Positions 40,036 to 46,194 of a DNA stretch of 64,000 nt are shown piece by piece (within the stretch, counting starts at the first letter, position 1; every line of letters begins with the position of its first letter). This DNA comes from Cryobacterium sp. SO1. GTDB lineage: Bacteria > Actinomycetota > Actinomycetes > Actinomycetales > Microbacteriaceae. A program made the position numbers and the translations under genes. Below the pieces are notes generated by a model. The model was not told the DNA's origin. It did no database searches and was given only the letters and a program-made list of their open reading frames with translations. Location: contig NZ_CP067394.1 in NCBI RefSeq assembly GCF_004210215.2, positions 2,604,001 through 2,668,000 of the forward strand, given 5' to 3'.

Positions 40036-40770
40036 ATGGAGCACTCACCAGGGCATCAGCCGGAGCCGGCCGTTGCGGTGTCCGGCCTGCACGTGCGCCG
40101 CGGCACCCGACCGGTGCTGGCCGGGCTGTCCCTCACGATCCCGGTTGGCGTCGTCGTGGGCCTGATCGGGCCGAGCGGATCGGGCAAGACCACTCTCATG
40201 CGCGCCATTGTCGGCGTGCAGGTCGTGCAGTCGGGATCGGTCACGGTGTTCGGCCAGCCGGCCGGATGCGCGGCCCTCCGCCGGCGGGTAGGCTACGTCA
40301 CCCAGGACGCCAGCGTCTACGACGACCTGACCGTGCGGCAGAACCTGGACTACTTCCGGGCCGTGCTGGGCGCCAGCCGCGCCGACGTGGCCAGGGTCAT
40401 CGACGCGACGGACCTGGGCGCCAGCTCGGCCCAGCTGACCGGGTCGCTCTCCGGCGGGCAGCGCAGCCGGGTGTCGCTGGCTGTGGCCCTAATCGGCTCC
40501 CCCGAACTGCTCGTGCTCGACGAACCCACCGTGGGCCTGGATCCGGTCCTCCGGCGCGACCTGTGGGCCCTGTTCCACCGCCTGGCCGCCGGCGGTACCA
40601 GCCTGCTGGTCTCCAGCCACGTGATGGACGAGGCGGCCAGGTGCGACCGGCTGCTGCTCATGCGCTCAGGAGAGGTCCTCGCCGACGACACCCCGGCCGG
40701 GTTGCTCGCCGCCACGGGCACGACGGACATCGAGGCCGCCTTCCTCAGCCTCATCGAGAAGGGCGCATGA
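40036..40770 (+). CDS. ABC transporter ATP-binding protein (ABC-2 export type)
   Basis: 244 aa. Walker A GPSGSGKTTL (about 48-57), Q-loop YVTQDASVYDDLTV, signature LSGGQRSRVSLAVAL, Walker B LLVLDEPTVGLDP, H-loop VSSHVMDEAARCD. Similar to the NodI/DrrA exporter group. Overlaps the permease start by ATGA (40767-40770), so the two subunits are made together. Substrate unknown (drug, lipid or polymer). Confidence 0.92.
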   Translation: MEHSPGHQPEPAVAVSGLHVRRGTRPVLAGLSLTIPVGVVVGLIGPSGSGKTTLMRAIVGVQVVQSGSVTVFGQPAGCAALRRRVGYVTQDASVYDDLTVRQNLDYFRAVLGASRADVARVIDATDLGASSAQLTGSLSGGQRSRVSLAVALIGSPELLVLDEPTVGLDPVLRRDLWALFHRLAAGGTSLLVSSHVMDEAARCDRLLLMRSGEVLADDTPAGLLAATGTTDIEAAFLSLIEKGA

Positions 40771-41501
40771 CCATCACCCGCACCCTCGCCACCGCCGGCC
40801 GGGTGCTCACCCAGATCCGGCACGACCCGCGCACCATCGCGCTGCTGCTGCTCGTGCCGAGCCTGCTGATCGGCCTGGTGGCTTGGATCTTCTCCGACAC
40901 CACGGTGTTCCAATCGGTGGGGCCGGCGATGATCGCGCTCTTCCCGTTCATCGTGATGTTCCTGGTCACCAGCATCACCACCCTCCGGGAGCGGCGCACC
41001 GGCACGCTGGAGCGGTTGTTATCGATGCCGATGGGCCGCGGCGACCTGATCCTCGGCTACACGCTCGCGTTCGGGCTGCTCGCGGTGCTGCAGTCCAGCA
41101 TCGCGGCGCTGTTCGCCGTCACGGTCTGCGGGCTGGACATCGCCGGCTCGCTCTGGCTGCTGGTGGCCGTCGCGGTGGCGGACGCCATCCTGGGCACGGC
41201 CCTGGGGCTGCTCGCGAGTGCCTTCGCCCGCACCGAGTTCCAAGTGGTGCAGTTCATGCCGCTGCTGGTCTTCCCGCAGATCCTGCTCGGCGGTATCTTC
41301 CTGCCGCGCAACCAGCTGCCGGAGGTGTTGCAGGCGATCGGTGATGCGCTGCCGCTCTCGCACGCCATCGACGCGCTCACTGCTGTGGCCGACGGAAACC
41401 ACGACGACGCCTACGTGCTCGGCAAGCTCCTCGTCATCCTGGCCTGGATCGCCGGTGCGGTGATCCTGGCCTCCCTCACCCTGCGCCGCCGCACCCCCTA
41501 G
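40767..41501 (+). CDS. ABC-2 type permease
   Basis: 244 aa. About six membrane segments; the ABC-2 features REERRTGTLERLLSMPMGRGDLILGYT-type loop and LPLSHAIDALTAVA near the C-terminus are present (seen as TTLRERRTGTLERLL and MPMGRGDLILGY). Together with the upstream ATPase it forms a two-gene exporter. A 25-base inverted repeat follows the stop, between this gene and the glycosidase-like gene. Confidence 0.9.
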   Translation: MTITRTLATAGRVLTQIRHDPRTIALLLLVPSLLIGLVAWIFSDTTVFQSVGPAMIALFPFIVMFLVTSITTLRERRTGTLERLLSMPMGRGDLILGYTLAFGLLAVLQSSIAALFAVTVCGLDIAGSLWLLVAVAVADAILGTALGLLASAFARTEFQVVQFMPLLVFPQILLGGIFLPRNQLPEVLQAIGDALPLSHAIDALTAVADGNHDDAYVLGKLLVILAWIAGAVILASLTLRRRTP

Positions 41502-41572: not shown

Positions 41573-43027
41573 CTAGCGGGAGTTGAGGACCCGCTGGAGC
41601 CAGCGGTAGGAGAGCTTGGGAGTGCGCGGGCGGGACGGGTCGGTGAAGTCCACGTAGACCAGGCCGAAGCGCTGGGTGTAGCCGGCCGCCCACTCGAAGC
41701 CATCCAGCAGCGACCAGACCAGGTAGCCGCGCAGGTCCACGCCCTCGGCCGGCCCGCCGGGGGCGACGGCGTCCACGGCCGCGACCAGGTGCTCGGCCAG
41801 GTAGTCGATCCGGGCCAGGTCGGTGACCGCGCCGTGCGCATCCGTTCGGTCGGGGTAACTCGCACCGCCGGCGGTCAGGTAGACCGGCGGCAGGGCCTTC
41901 TGGTAGCGCTCATGCAGTTCGGCGAGCAGCACCGGCAGGTACTCCGGGGCGTTCGGCCAGCCGAACCCGGTGACCGGATGCTCTCGGAACGCCTCGACAT
42001 GGAAGGGCAGGCGGTTGACCATCGGGCGCTCCTCGGCGGGCCGCTCCCCCGGCACACTGACCGGTCGGGCCCCGCCTGCGGCCACCCGGGTGGGCTGGAA
42101 GTAGTCGACGCCGTAGAAGTCCAGCGGTTGGTGGATCGTGCGCAGGTCGTCTGGCTCGATCTCGTGCAGGAAGCGCAACTCGTTCTCGAACACCCCGGCG
42201 GGGTCCGGGTAGCGGCCGAGCAGCACCGGGTCGGCGAAGAGCCGGTTGTGCAGCAGGTCGTAGAGCGCGGCCGCGTCGCGGTCGGCCTCCCGGTCGGTGG
42301 CGCTCTGCACGGGCGAGTGCGCGTTGGACAGGCCGATCCGGCCGCTGACGTCGGCGGCGCGCAGGCCCTGCACCGCCAAGCCGTGCGCGAGCAGCTGGTG
42401 GTGGCCGGCCGGCAGTGCGCCCAGCAGCAGGGTCTCGCCCGGGGCGTGCACGCCGATCGCGTAACCATTGAACATCACCGTGGCCGGGTCGGCGATGGTG
42501 ACCCAGCGTTCGATCCGGTCGCCGAAGACCTCGCCCATCTGGTGGGCGTAGTCGCCGAAGCGCATCGCCGTGTCCCGGTTCAGCCAGCCGCCGCGGAGCG
42601 CCAGCGGGGTGTCCCAGTGATAGAGCGTGGCCATCGGGCTGATGCCGCTGCCGAGCAGTTGGTCGAGCAAGCGGTCGTAGAACGCCAGGCCGGACCGGTT
42701 GAGCGACCCGCGCCCGTCGGGCTGCAGCCGCGGCCAGGCGAAGGAGAACCTGTAAATGTCTGCGCCCAGTTCGGTCAGCAGCGTCACGTCCTCGGTCAGG
42801 TTGGTGACGTGGTCGGCTCCGATCGACGCGTTCTGGCCGTCCAGGATGCGCCCGGGCGCGCGGGTGAAGGCGTCCCAGCTGGATTCGCCGCGGCCGCCGT
42901 CGCGGGCGCCGCCTTCGATCTGGAAGGCGGAGGTGGCCGTTCCGATCTGGAATCCGGTGGGCAGCCGGTCGCCCAGCTCACTGGCCCGGTGCTGCCAGGC
43001 GCGGGAGGCCGGGGTGTTGCTGTTCAT
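41573..43027 (-). CDS. GH1 family protein lacking both catalytic glutamates (pseudo-glycosidase)
   Basis: 484 aa, full-length GH1 beta-glucosidase fold: FQIGTATSAFQIEGGARDGG, YHWDTPLALRGGWLNRD, GYLVWSLLDGFEWAAGYTQR, VYVDFTDPSRPRTPKLS. In active GH1 enzymes the acid/base is the Glu of NEP and the nucleophile is the Glu of TENG. Here these read WVTIADPATV (about residues 175-184, Glu to Asp and Asn to Ala) and VYLTAGGASYPD (about 381-392, Glu to Ala, Asn to Gly). The sugar-binding Gln, His and Glu-Trp positions are kept. The gene has no stops and overlaps the oxidase by ATGA. It may bind a sugar without hydrolysing it. Confidence 0.9.
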   Translation of the reverse strand: MNSNTPASRAWQHRASELGDRLPTGFQIGTATSAFQIEGGARDGGRGESSWDAFTRAPGRILDGQNASIGADHVTNLTEDVTLLTELGADIYRFSFAWPRLQPDGRGSLNRSGLAFYDRLLDQLLGSGISPMATLYHWDTPLALRGGWLNRDTAMRFGDYAHQMGEVFGDRIERWVTIADPATVMFNGYAIGVHAPGETLLLGALPAGHHQLLAHGLAVQGLRAADVSGRIGLSNAHSPVQSATDREADRDAAALYDLLHNRLFADPVLLGRYPDPAGVFENELRFLHEIEPDDLRTIHQPLDFYGVDYFQPTRVAAGGARPVSVPGERPAEERPMVNRLPFHVEAFREHPVTGFGWPNAPEYLPVLLAELHERYQKALPPVYLTAGGASYPDRTDAHGAVTDLARIDYLAEHLVAAVDAVAPGGPAEGVDLRGYLVWSLLDGFEWAAGYTQRFGLVYVDFTDPSRPRTPKLSYRWLQRVLNSR

Positions 43028-44333
43028 GGTCCAAGGACTCTTTCCAGGTAACGGTTGGTGAATCGACGCTCCGGGTCCAGCCGGTCCCGCACGGCGAGGA
43101 AGTCGTCGAAGTGCGGGTAAACCGTGCGGAGTGTGTCCGCGGTCTGGTTGTGCATCTTCCCCAGTGTGGGCGACCGTCGTGCGCGCGCATAATCGCCTCG
43201 ACATCGGTGAAGTAACGGCTGGGGTCCTCCCGGTAGTACGTGTGCACGGCGATGTAGCCGGTATCCCGGCCGAAGCCGGTGGACATCCACAGGTCGTCTG
43301 CCGCGGCGGTGCGCACCTCGAGGGGGAAGGAGATGCGCCAGCCGCGCTTCTGGATGAGCGCGCGCACCTCGCGGAGTGCTGCCGGCACCGCCTCGCGGGG
43401 CAGCGCGTACTCCATCTCGTGGAACCGAACAGAGCGGTTCGTGACGAAGACCCGGTGCGAGTGGTCGGTGAAGTCCCGGCGGCCGGTGAGCCGTTCGACG
43501 AGCCGGTTGACCCTGGGCACGACCGGCGGCACGATCAGGCCGGCCGCGCAGGTGGCGCGGTACAGCCCGTTGGCGAGCAGTTCGTCGTCGACCCAGCGGT
43601 TCAGCCGGCCCCGCGGGGCCCGGCCGGTTCCGGGCGGCAACCGGGTGTTGGTCTTGGTCAGGGCGGTCTCGGTATGCGGAAACCAGTAGAACTCGAAGTG
43701 GTCGGCCGAGGCACTGCGTTCGAGGTACCCGTCCAGCACGTCCTCGACCGGCTCCGGCGTGTCGACGGCATGCAGCAGGTAGGCGGGCACGCACTGGATG
43801 GTGAGGTCGACGAGGATGCCCAGCGCGCCCAGGCCCAGCCGCACGGCGGGGAGCAGCTCGGGGTTCTCGGAGTCGCTGACGTGCAACAGCGTTCCGTCGC
43901 CGGTGACCAGGGTGACGGCCACGATTTGGGCGGCCAGGCCGGCGAAACCGGTGCCGGTGCCGTGCGTGCCCGTCGAGGTGGCGCCGGCGATGGTCTGCCG
44001 GTCGATGTCGCCCATGTTCTGCAGCGCCAGACCGTACGGGGCCAGGAGCGCGGGCAGCTCGTGAAGATGGGTGCCCGCGGCGACGGTGACCCGGCCGGCC
44101 GCCTCGTCGACGTCGACCAGCCCGCCGAACGCCAGGTCGAGTTGCACCCCGGAGGCCAGCGCGATGCCGGAGAAGCTGTGCCCGGCGCCGACGGCCTTGA
44201 TCCGGATGCCCGCGGTCGCCGCGGCGAAAACGGCGCGTTGCACCGCTCCCGCGCTGGTGGGCCGCTCCACCCTGGCCGGCACGACGGATTCGCTGCGTGC
44301 CCAGTTCTGCCAGCGCGCACCGCTGGCCGTCAC
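43024..44333 (-). pseudogene. D-arabinono-1,4-lactone / alditol oxidase family protein, frameshifted near C-terminus
   Basis: VAO-family flavoenzyme: residues 20-190 form the FAD domain with AVGAGHSFSGIALASG, whose His is the covalent FAD site in this family, and TSTGTHGTGTGFAG. The C-terminal ALO domain should end in HWGK. From GTG 44333 (GTGA overlap with the upstream gene) the frame is intact to GRPHWG at about 43160, then a run GGGG (43159-43162 on the + strand as CCCC) is one base short: the true ending KMHNQTADTLRTVYPHFDDF...ERVLGP is in the other frame and ends at 43024, overlapping the next ATG. With one base restored it would be 436 aa. Real mutation or homopolymer error. Confidence 0.85.
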
Positions 44334-45577
44334 AGGAAGGCCTTCCCTTCGCCTCGGTAGGTCGGCAGCATGTCGACCACGATACCGTCGTCGACCAGCG
44401 CGAATTCGTTGAGGTGTTCGCTGAGCTCCCCGGATTTCGTGTGCCGCAACCACACCCGGTCGCCCACCTGCAGTTCCGCCGCTGCGGCCCCGGTGACCGG
44501 GGACTGCACCTCCCCGGCCATCTCGCGGGGCACCAGGGCCAGACCCTCCGGCCAGACCAGCCGGGGCGAGCGGTCAGCGCCCGGCGGGCCGGAGGCGATC
44601 CAGCCGCCGCCGAGCAGGGCCGCCGTGGAGGCGGTCGGTTTGCGCACCACCGACAGCGCGAACGCGGCGGCCGGGGCCGGCCGGAAGCCGGAGTAGTTGT
44701 CGAAGTGGTGGCCGCCGAAGAAGCCGCTCCCGGCGGCGATGTCGGTCACCGAGGTGTCGGCATGGGTGCTCTCCAGCGACCCGGTTCCGCCGCCGTTGAC
44801 GAATTCCAGGTCGGCCACCTGCCGCACCGCGGCGACGGCGGCGGCCCTGCGGGTGTTGATGTCCACGATCGACCGGTTGCGCACCCAGCGGTTCAACCTG
44901 CCCTGCACCGGCCGAGCGTCCGGCCGGTCGCCGAGCCCGGCGATCTGGGCCTCGTACGCCATCAACCCGACCAGGTCGAAGCCGGGCCGGGAGACGATCC
45001 CCACGGCCAGCGCCCTGGCGTCCTCCGGCGTGTGCACGGGCGAGCGCCAGACGCCGAGGTGGCCGAGCACCGGCGCGTTCCAGGACGCATCCAGTTCGAG
45101 GCAGACCCGGATGCGTTCACGCTGGGGCGGCGCGATCACAGCGTCGATCAGGTCGAGGTGGGCGATCGAATCCACCATCAGGGTGATCCGGCCGGCCAGC
45201 TCGGCCGAGCGGGCCAACCGCAGGATCGCCGAGGTGTCGGCGCTGGGATAGCCGACCACGATGTCATCGAGGGTCTCGGCGAGCCAGAGGGCCTCGGCCA
45301 GGGTGTACGCGAGCACACCGCGGTAGCCGGGCAGCGCGACCACGGCCTCGAGCACGCCCCGCACCCGCAGCGATTTGCTGGCCACCCGGATCGGGGTGCC
45401 CTGGGCGCGGCGGAGCAGATCCTGGGTGTTGTGCCGCAGCGCGCCGAGGTGCAGCGCGCCCACGGGGGTGTCCAGACCGCTGGTGGCCTCGGTCAGGCCC
45501 GGCCAGTACAGCTCGGGTGTCTGCCAGGGCGCCCCGCCCTGGTCGGTGCTCTCGCCGAGGGCCAACGCCAGGCTCAC
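44330..45577 (-). CDS. PLP-dependent amino acid deaminase/aldolase (alanine racemase-like fold)
   Basis: 415 aa. N-terminal alanine-racemase-like barrel of the D-threonine aldolase / D-serine dehydratase group: LHLGALRHNTQDLL then the PLP lysine in PIRVASKSLRVRGVL (about 60-74). LMAYEAQIAGLGDR and LEFVNGGGTGSLE are phosphate-site parts. The C-terminal domain includes VWLRHTKSGELSEHLNEF, where metal-dependent members hold ligands. Substrate unknown; the operon (TetR, this, oxidase, GH1-like) suggests a small-molecule pathway. Overlaps both neighbours by four bases. Confidence 0.8.
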   Translation of the reverse strand: MSLALALGESTDQGGAPWQTPELYWPGLTEATSGLDTPVGALHLGALRHNTQDLLRRAQGTPIRVASKSLRVRGVLEAVVALPGYRGVLAYTLAEALWLAETLDDIVVGYPSADTSAILRLARSAELAGRITLMVDSIAHLDLIDAVIAPPQRERIRVCLELDASWNAPVLGHLGVWRSPVHTPEDARALAVGIVSRPGFDLVGLMAYEAQIAGLGDRPDARPVQGRLNRWVRNRSIVDINTRRAAAVAAVRQVADLEFVNGGGTGSLESTHADTSVTDIAAGSGFFGGHHFDNYSGFRPAPAAAFALSVVRKPTASTAALLGGGWIASGPPGADRSPRLVWPEGLALVPREMAGEVQSPVTGAAAAELQVGDRVWLRHTKSGELSEHLNEFALVDDGIVVDMLPTYRGEGKAFL

Positions 45578-46194
45578 GCGGGGCGTCCCAGCCGAGCGAC
45601 GGAGTCGGCGGCGACGTCAAGCAGGCTCGCGGTGGCGGCGTCGTTCCGGTCGACCAGCCAGGCGATGGTGAGGCCGTCGGTGAGGGCGACCACCAGACGG
45701 GCGATCTCGCCGACCGGGAGGAGCCAGACCGAGCCGCTGCGTTGGGCCGCGGATTCCAGCGCGACGGCGGCGAGGGCGTGGTAGCGCTCGTACTGCGCCT
45801 GCGCGAGATGGCGCATCGCCGGGGACCTGAGGGCGTACTGGGTGAGTTCGAGCATGGCCTTCTCTCTCAGCGGGTCGTGGCGCAGGTGATCGGCGTAACC
45901 CTGTAGCCCGACGCGCAGCACCTGCCGCAACGGTTCGGGCCCGCCCACCCCCTGGGGGACCTCGGCGGCCGGCTGTGGCAGCACGGCGGTGCCTTCCTGT
46001 TCGACGACATGACGGATCAGTTCGGCCATCAGCTCGTCGCGGCTCTCGAAGGCGTAGTGGAAGCTCGCCAACGACATGCCGGCATCGGCGACGATCGCAC
46101 GGGTCGTGGCCTGGGCCACGCCCTTGTCGGCAACGACCCGCAACGCGGCGCGTACCAGAGCGCTGCGCCGGTCAGCGGCGGGGATTCGAGTCAC
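45574..46194 (-). CDS. TetR family transcriptional regulator
   Basis: 206 aa, GTG start with a GAGG box 7 bases upstream. N-terminal helix-turn-helix (about 12-58): LVRAALRVVADKGVAQATTRAIVADAGMSLASFHYAFESRDEL-type pattern (quoted parts: ADKGVAQATTRAIVADAG and SLASFHYAFESRDEL). The remainder is a helical ligand-binding and dimer domain. First gene of the four-gene overlapping operon, so probably regulates itself and the operon. A 12-bp palindrome is upstream. Confidence 0.92.
   Translation of the reverse strand: MTRIPAADRRSALVRAALRVVADKGVAQATTRAIVADAGMSLASFHYAFESRDELMAELIRHVVEQEGTAVLPQPAAEVPQGVGGPEPLRQVLRVGLQGYADHLRHDPLREKAMLELTQYALRSPAMRHLAQAQYERYHALAAVALESAAQRSGSVWLLPVGEIARLVVALTDGLTIAWLVDRNDAATASLLDVAADSVARLGRPA

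Follow-up and report, generated by a model that had tools for sequence, protein, structure and literature searches.

A predicted GH1 pseudoenzyme of Cryobacterium and the apparently repeated loss of its nucleophile in Microbacteriaceae

Pseudoglycosidases, proteins that keep a glycosidase fold without its catalytic residues, are already known as a kind. In glycoside hydrolase family 1 (GH1), the nearest functional parallel to the protein described here would appear, by description, to be the KL1 and KL2 domains of Klotho, animal GH1-like domains that the accessible text of the source gives as lacking the conserved catalytic glutamates and as perhaps lectin-like (PMC10628560). Elsewhere, the subfamily GH5_30 is described, in the part of the source available, as one in which every sequence lacks essential residues (PMC3526467), and YKL-39 and CyRPA are likewise presented as glycosidase relatives that bind glycans or are inactive (PMC7828330). 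According to the accessible part of a further source, pseudoenzymes are commonly linked to gene duplication (PMC6549527). Here we describe P0001, a GH1-like protein encoded in a 64,000-nucleotide stretch of Cryobacterium sp. SO1, a bacterium of cold habitats (contig NZ_CP067394.1, positions 2,604,001 to 2,668,000; the whole stretch is called the window below), in which both catalytic glutamates are replaced and which we predict to be a pseudoenzyme.

The best structural matches of P0001 are GH1 beta-glucosidases. With 8znv/8znw (Cba3 of Cellulomonas biazotea) and 1gnx (Streptomyces) it shares the fold, the order of the motifs and the equivalents of Q36, H137, E445 and W446 (P0001 numbering throughout); it differs from them in that the nucleophile Glu and the NEP motif are gone and the Asn of DNFEW is replaced. 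Klotho, as far as its description goes, is an animal protein of receptor type with two such domains, whereas P0001 is bacterial and its single GH1 domain spans residues 20-482 of 484; the likeness consists of GH1 membership and the lost glutamates. GH5_30 and the other GH5 proteins without catalytic residues belong to a different family, and the accessible part of the source does not tell of an operon gene in which such a loss recurred. Unlike P0001, YKL-39 and CyRPA, as presented there, are not bacterial GH1 proteins. Searches of the open PMC subset, outside which most subscription papers lie, brought up neither a bacterial GH1 pseudoenzyme of this kind nor a bacterial GH1 operon gene that was inactivated repeatedly while intermediate forms survive. 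In the present case a single orthologous operon gene seems to have lost its nucleophile several times within one bacterial family, and the closest other GH1 protein of the same genome is just 42% identical to P0001.

Active-site residues of P0001

Read on the minus strand, the gene bounds used (41573-43027) give 484 amino acids and zero internal stops; the longest listed open frame reaches 43204, and the start was set at the ATG at 43027 because this codon shares bases with the TGA that ends the gene upstream. A preliminary description of this DNA gave the same bounds but no strand. Pfam Glyco_hydro_1 (PF00232) covers residues 20-482 and profile positions 3-449 of 453 with 415.3 bits (cut-off 22.6), in agreement with the full-length, uninterrupted GH1 fold claimed in that description. 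The NCBIfam beta-glucosidase equivalog TIGR03356 reaches 444.1 bits, below its cut-off of 478.5. In the alignment to 8znv, WVTIADPATV stands opposite WCPVNEPNVV, placing D180 at the position of the acid/base Glu and A179-D180-P181 in place of N-E-P, and YLTAGGASY stands opposite LITENGCSY, placing A386 where active GH1 beta-glucosidases carry the nucleophile Glu of T-E-N/G-G. Both glutamates are indeed replaced, as had been proposed, and the glycone-side Gln, His and Glu-Trp are retained (Q36, H137, E445 and W446), together with Y309 and W438. Relative to normal GH1 proteins, N179 has become Ala, E180 Asp, N308 Asp, E386 Ala and N443 Gly; the preliminary description did not list the changes at D308 (the Asn of NYY) and G443 (the Asn of DNFEW). 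A179, D180 and A386 are common to the window copy and its orthologues in four other genomes (G046, G055, G048 and G038), and the substitutions are therefore not a sequencing slip. Conservation of the exact AD and AG substitutions had been proposed as a check; it holds only in this five-genome clade, and elsewhere other residues occupy these positions.

P0001 also carries an N-terminal W-x-[HR]-R-x-x-E-[LF]-G segment (residues 9-19), a possible interaction element, which occurs in all printed Cryobacterium orthologues, including those with a normal nucleophile. We dropped it as a Cryobacterium trait because similar segments occur in nucleophile-bearing copies of the genera g38, g84 and g58.

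Distribution and loss of the nucleophile

An orthologue of the gene is present in 55 of 57 Cryobacterium genomes. Residue counts and trees used 52 of these 55, leaving aside G033 and G044, where the contig ends in the gene, and G050 (genome 83% complete), where the frame is broken. The nucleophile Glu is missing in 47 of the 52 scored copies (hereafter E-less) and present in five (E-bearing: G002, G006, G020, G021 and G051). Residue 386 of the 47 E-less copies is Ala in 21, Leu in 17, Ser in 3, Val in 3, Thr in 2 and Gly in 1; their lengths range from 472 to 549 amino acids and none has an internal stop. The longest, L065 of G005, has extra sequence at about 318-332, and its Q137 and R138 are unlike those of the other scored copies. 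The E-bearing L106 of G006 has R-A-W-Q-H-R-A in tandem duplicate at its N terminus.

Among 80 named loci, the best of 564 confirmed stretches, two are from Cryobacterium and 77 of the 78 others keep the nucleophile, the exception being L143 of an unclassified Microbacteriaceae bin. With the L143 protein as query and E <= 1e-125, a search of 398 Microbacteriaceae genomes, drawn evenly from a larger group, gave matches in 66, 10 of them Cryobacterium; 56 non-Cryobacterium copies were read, and the E-less share outside Cryobacterium applies to copies read at this threshold. The combined set has 113 rows (110 distinct), including five named copies: E386 is lost in 56 (47 Cryobacterium, four g37 and five g113) and kept in 57. 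Nucleophile loss is thus seen in two genera besides Cryobacterium, g37, with which a Subtercola copy groups on the tree, and g113. Three g2 rows without the operon described below (L217, L236 and L239) may not be true orthologues. The preliminary description had named a lone mutated gene among orthologues with normal motifs as what would refute its reading. This holds in one half: such orthologues do exist, but the window copy belongs to a group of 56 without the nucleophile Glu, which trace to several losses.

Change counts were taken as unordered parsimony minima. A 58-row tree, with 15 active-site columns removed, requires at least five nucleophile and at least eight acid/base changes; on the 113-row tree (17 columns removed), which comes from a quick search and has some weak inner branches, the minima are 6 for the nucleophile, 10 for the acid/base position, 7 for W438 and 4 for N443. 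A single loss in Cryobacterium was rejected when the 47 E-less copies, a group defined by residue and not by tree, were constrained together (p-AU 7.65e-06). The placement of G002 itself is weakly supported (84/39 in the 58-row tree, 10 in a first tree that further omitted G005 and five distant rows), and gene conversion of the active-site stretch could make this copy look like a case of E386 retention. The nucleophile appears to have been lost several separate times in one orthologous gene of the Microbacteriaceae.

Several positions stayed nearly constant in the E-less copies: Q36, H137 and Y309 are each kept in 55/56, E445 in 54/55 and W446 in 55/55 (one copy, L207 of G406, is cut by a contig end and has no residues 438-446). 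N443 is kept in none of 55, being replaced by Gly (31), Ala (14) or Ser (10), and W357 is kept in 6/56, N308 in 15/56 (Ser in 26) and N179 in 18/56. W438 is kept in 33/55 and lost in 22, with Arg in 19; R93 is lost in 15/56, and the residue after the nucleophile position is absent from 8/56. The acid/base position holds Glu in 32/56 and Asp in 21/56. Neither position 386 nor its neighbours showed a conserved residue that could take over as nucleophile in the 56 copies. Residues for the ancestral chemistry have been lost, as expected of a pseudoenzyme.

The E-bearing copies, for their part, keep N443 in 53/57, and all four exceptions (G020, G051, G006 and G339, of g37) combine G443 and R438 with an intact E386. 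Remodelling can therefore precede the loss of the nucleophile; that it can occur is not to say that it is universal. A comparison covered sites at which at least 95% of 77 E-bearing relatives share one residue; of the 89 that sort into either of two classes, 68 are fixed (at least 98%) and 21 released in the 47 Cryobacterium copies, a tally that omits sites between the cut-offs; the released sites include R93, W138, N179, E180, N308, Y310, W357, E386, W438 and N443. A further 36 sites that looked gained in the E-less copies were left unused, such gains being expected in a set with less divergence than the one it was compared with.

Operon context and selection

At 34 non-Cryobacterium loci, read with flanks of at most 5 kb, the genes TetR, MFS, Alr and ALO lie upstream of GH1 in 19 of 26 E-bearing rows vs none of eight E-less rows, two of which are on short contigs. 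E-bearing relatives in the Microbacteriaceae thus mostly sit in a TetR-MFS-Alr-ALO-GH1 operon. All five genes occur together in only two Cryobacterium genomes, G002 and G021, whose copies are also the sole ones of the genus that are normal at all 15 listed positions (counting Gly after the nucleophile as normal); the upstream contig of G006 is too short for an operon call. Over the 57 genomes, GH1 is found in 55, ALO in 39 (one a 58% match), Alr in 32 and an MFS orthologue in 8. Seventeen genomes form a clade that reads S-L-A at the nucleophile stretch; no partner of the four was found near GH1 there, and genome-wide searches at E 1e-60 recovered neither Alr nor ALO nor MFS (TetR was searched in fetched loci only). 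The gene survives in these genomes without its partners, so that its job there must be independent of the old operon. The window's clade has TetR and no MFS at the locus. Downstream, most Cryobacterium loci have LemA and M48 genes, often with an ABC pair in between.

The gene has been maintained by selection in every set tested. Codon models with a single omega, fitted to neighbouring genes too as controls, put the window's five-genome clade at 0.070 and this clade with six more copies at 0.106; three further E-less sets gave 0.081, 0.092 and 0.066, vs 0.113 for ten E-bearing copies. Outside the genus, E-less copies of g37 and g113 gave 0.117 and 0.119, and E-bearing copies of g37, g107 and g41 gave 0.096, 0.055 and 0.090. 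E-less sets as a whole span 0.066-0.119 and E-bearing sets 0.055-0.113, and omega = 1 was rejected in every one of them. Among the neighbours, in the order win+w2, ND and S-L-A sets where the gene is present, omega was 0.085 and 0.122 for Alr, 0.119 and 0.122 for ALO, 0.065, 0.042 and 0.027 for the ABC permease, 0.088, 0.052 and 0.069 for the ABC ATPase, 0.028, 0.029 and 0.016 for LemA and 0.022, 0.047 and 0.031 for M48. The E-less GH1 genes are therefore under constraint similar to that on Alr and ALO and weaker than that on LemA and M48. The earlier view that the gene is kept and not decaying agrees with these values, and with the near-invariance of Q36, H137, E445 and W446 in the 56 copies.

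In the window, GH1 is the final gene of a minus-strand run of TetR, Alr, ALO and GH1 (Table 1), and the ATGA overlap suggests that ALO and GH1 may be translationally coupled. The ALO frame is broken near 43160, where a G run is one base shorter than in two relatives, and continues past the break in a different frame; in the genus search the ALO match of this genome ends at query residue 419 of 460. The break may be real or an assembly or sequencing slip. The Alr orthologue of G021 distantly resembles 3-hydroxy-D-aspartate and D-threonine aldolases. The ABC pair, often a syntenic neighbour, is not taken as part of the system. The same genome also has a full-length GH1 protein and a 422-residue GH1 frame, both with NEP and TENG. 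Two partial GH1 sequences lie outside the window, a C-terminal fragment that has TENG and a remnant containing a TGA (labels L003, L005 and L007; G000:C1:357752-358384 and 3988873-3989274).

Table 1. Features of the GH1 locus, in window coordinates
Feature	Position	Strand	Basis
GH1-like predicted pseudoenzyme P0001, 484 aa	41573..43027	minus	GH1 profile and alignment
ATGA overlap, ALO-frame stop / GH1 start	43024..43027	minus	
ALO, FAD-linked sugar-lactone/alditol-oxidase-type gene	43024..44333	minus	TIGR01679
Alr, pyridoxal-phosphate (PLP) fold-III type protein (alanine racemase N-terminal domain)	44330..45577	minus	
TetR-family regulator, first gene in run	45574..46194	minus	
ABC transporter ATPase and ABC-2 permease, convergent with GH1 gene	40036..41501	plus	

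A probable non-hydrolytic role and its alternatives

We consider it rather probable, on the residues and their conservation, that P0001 is a pseudoenzyme of the GH1 family which selection retains for a task other than hydrolysis, most likely the cytosolic binding of a sugar or small glycoside. The retaining GH1 reaction requires the nucleophile, and ordinary hydrolysis by the E-less copies is therefore very unlikely. Strong constraint speaks against decay, and the constancy of Q36, H137, E445 and W446 next to an altered catalytic and aglycone side fits a monosaccharide-like ligand that is held uncut; the retention of these four residues is suggestive of glycan binding, as a prediction. Relatives with a normal active site mostly lie in the TetR-MFS-Alr-ALO-GH1 operon, and the nucleophile appears to have been lost several times, the barrel and the four residues staying in place while the catalytic and aglycone side was rebuilt; selection remained strong even in the clade that lacks the four partners. 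Hydrolysis would have ceased in the E-less copies, the pocket would still hold a monosaccharide-like ligand, and a partner may read out the bound state, giving the protein the role of a sensor, regulator or scaffold. More tentatively, and with some doubt, we propose that several lineages followed one repeatable route, in which the aglycone side was rebuilt and Asn443 made small while the Glu was present, the nucleophile being lost afterwards.

Several observations weigh against this account. With Glu or Asp at the acid/base position of almost every E-less copy, some acid function could remain, and the conserved residues could reflect packing. The MFS gene persists in five genomes with an E-less copy (G025, G032, G039, G052 and G054), and G051 has E386 without it. 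Finally, on independent tree pairs over well-supported branches, the loss of E386 showed no significant association with the loss of MFS (3 pairs) or with the change of N443 (4 pairs), the pairs being too few.

Among the alternatives, selection may act on the barrel surface or on the N-terminal segment of a non-catalytic scaffold or subunit whose pocket is vestigial. We regard this as unlikely: the presence of the segment in every printed Cryobacterium orthologue and the survival of GH1 beyond its operon partners would suit a scaffold, but the segment is not genus-specific, Q36, H137, E445 and W446 are near-universal in the E-less copies, and position 443 of the E-less copies is only ever Gly, Ala or Ser. 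Less likely still is a rebuilt enzyme with the GH1 fold and a non-Koshland chemistry (inverting, lyase-like or transfer), for which the window's clade might employ D180 and D308. Strong purifying selection, the acidic residue at the acid/base position in 53 of the 56 E-less copies and the Asp or Glu at 308 throughout the five-genome clade count in its favour; against it, the nucleophile position has become Ala, Leu, Ser, Gly, Val or Thr and the following residue is sometimes missing altogether, position 308 is Ser in 26 and Asn in 15 of the 56, and the acid/base position has switched between Glu and other residues at least 10 times.

That a redundant gene is simply being lost once its pathway is gone is very improbable: operon partners are missing from many genomes, two of 57 lack the GH1 orthologue and frames are broken in the window's ALO and in the G050 orthologue, but E-less omegas far below 1 and 47 intact reading frames are not those of a decaying gene. 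We give hardly any credence to a weak glycosidase in which water or an external base replaces the nucleophile, as the acid/base Glu of 32 copies might suggest, because myrosinases, which are GH1 enzymes active with one of the two Glu missing, retain the very nucleophile that the E-less copies lose, and R93 and W438 are also frequently lost.

A GH1 protein kept for binding without hydrolysis carries a warning for annotation, since a Pfam match alone would label it a glycosyl hydrolase. E-bearing, intermediate and E-less forms of this gene are all extant and constitute a natural replicate experiment on enzymes giving up catalysis. If the proposed route is true, its order would mean that hydrolysis was given up only after a new function had arisen; the protein might then sense monosaccharides inside the cell or carry out another chemistry at a GH1 centre that has been rebuilt.
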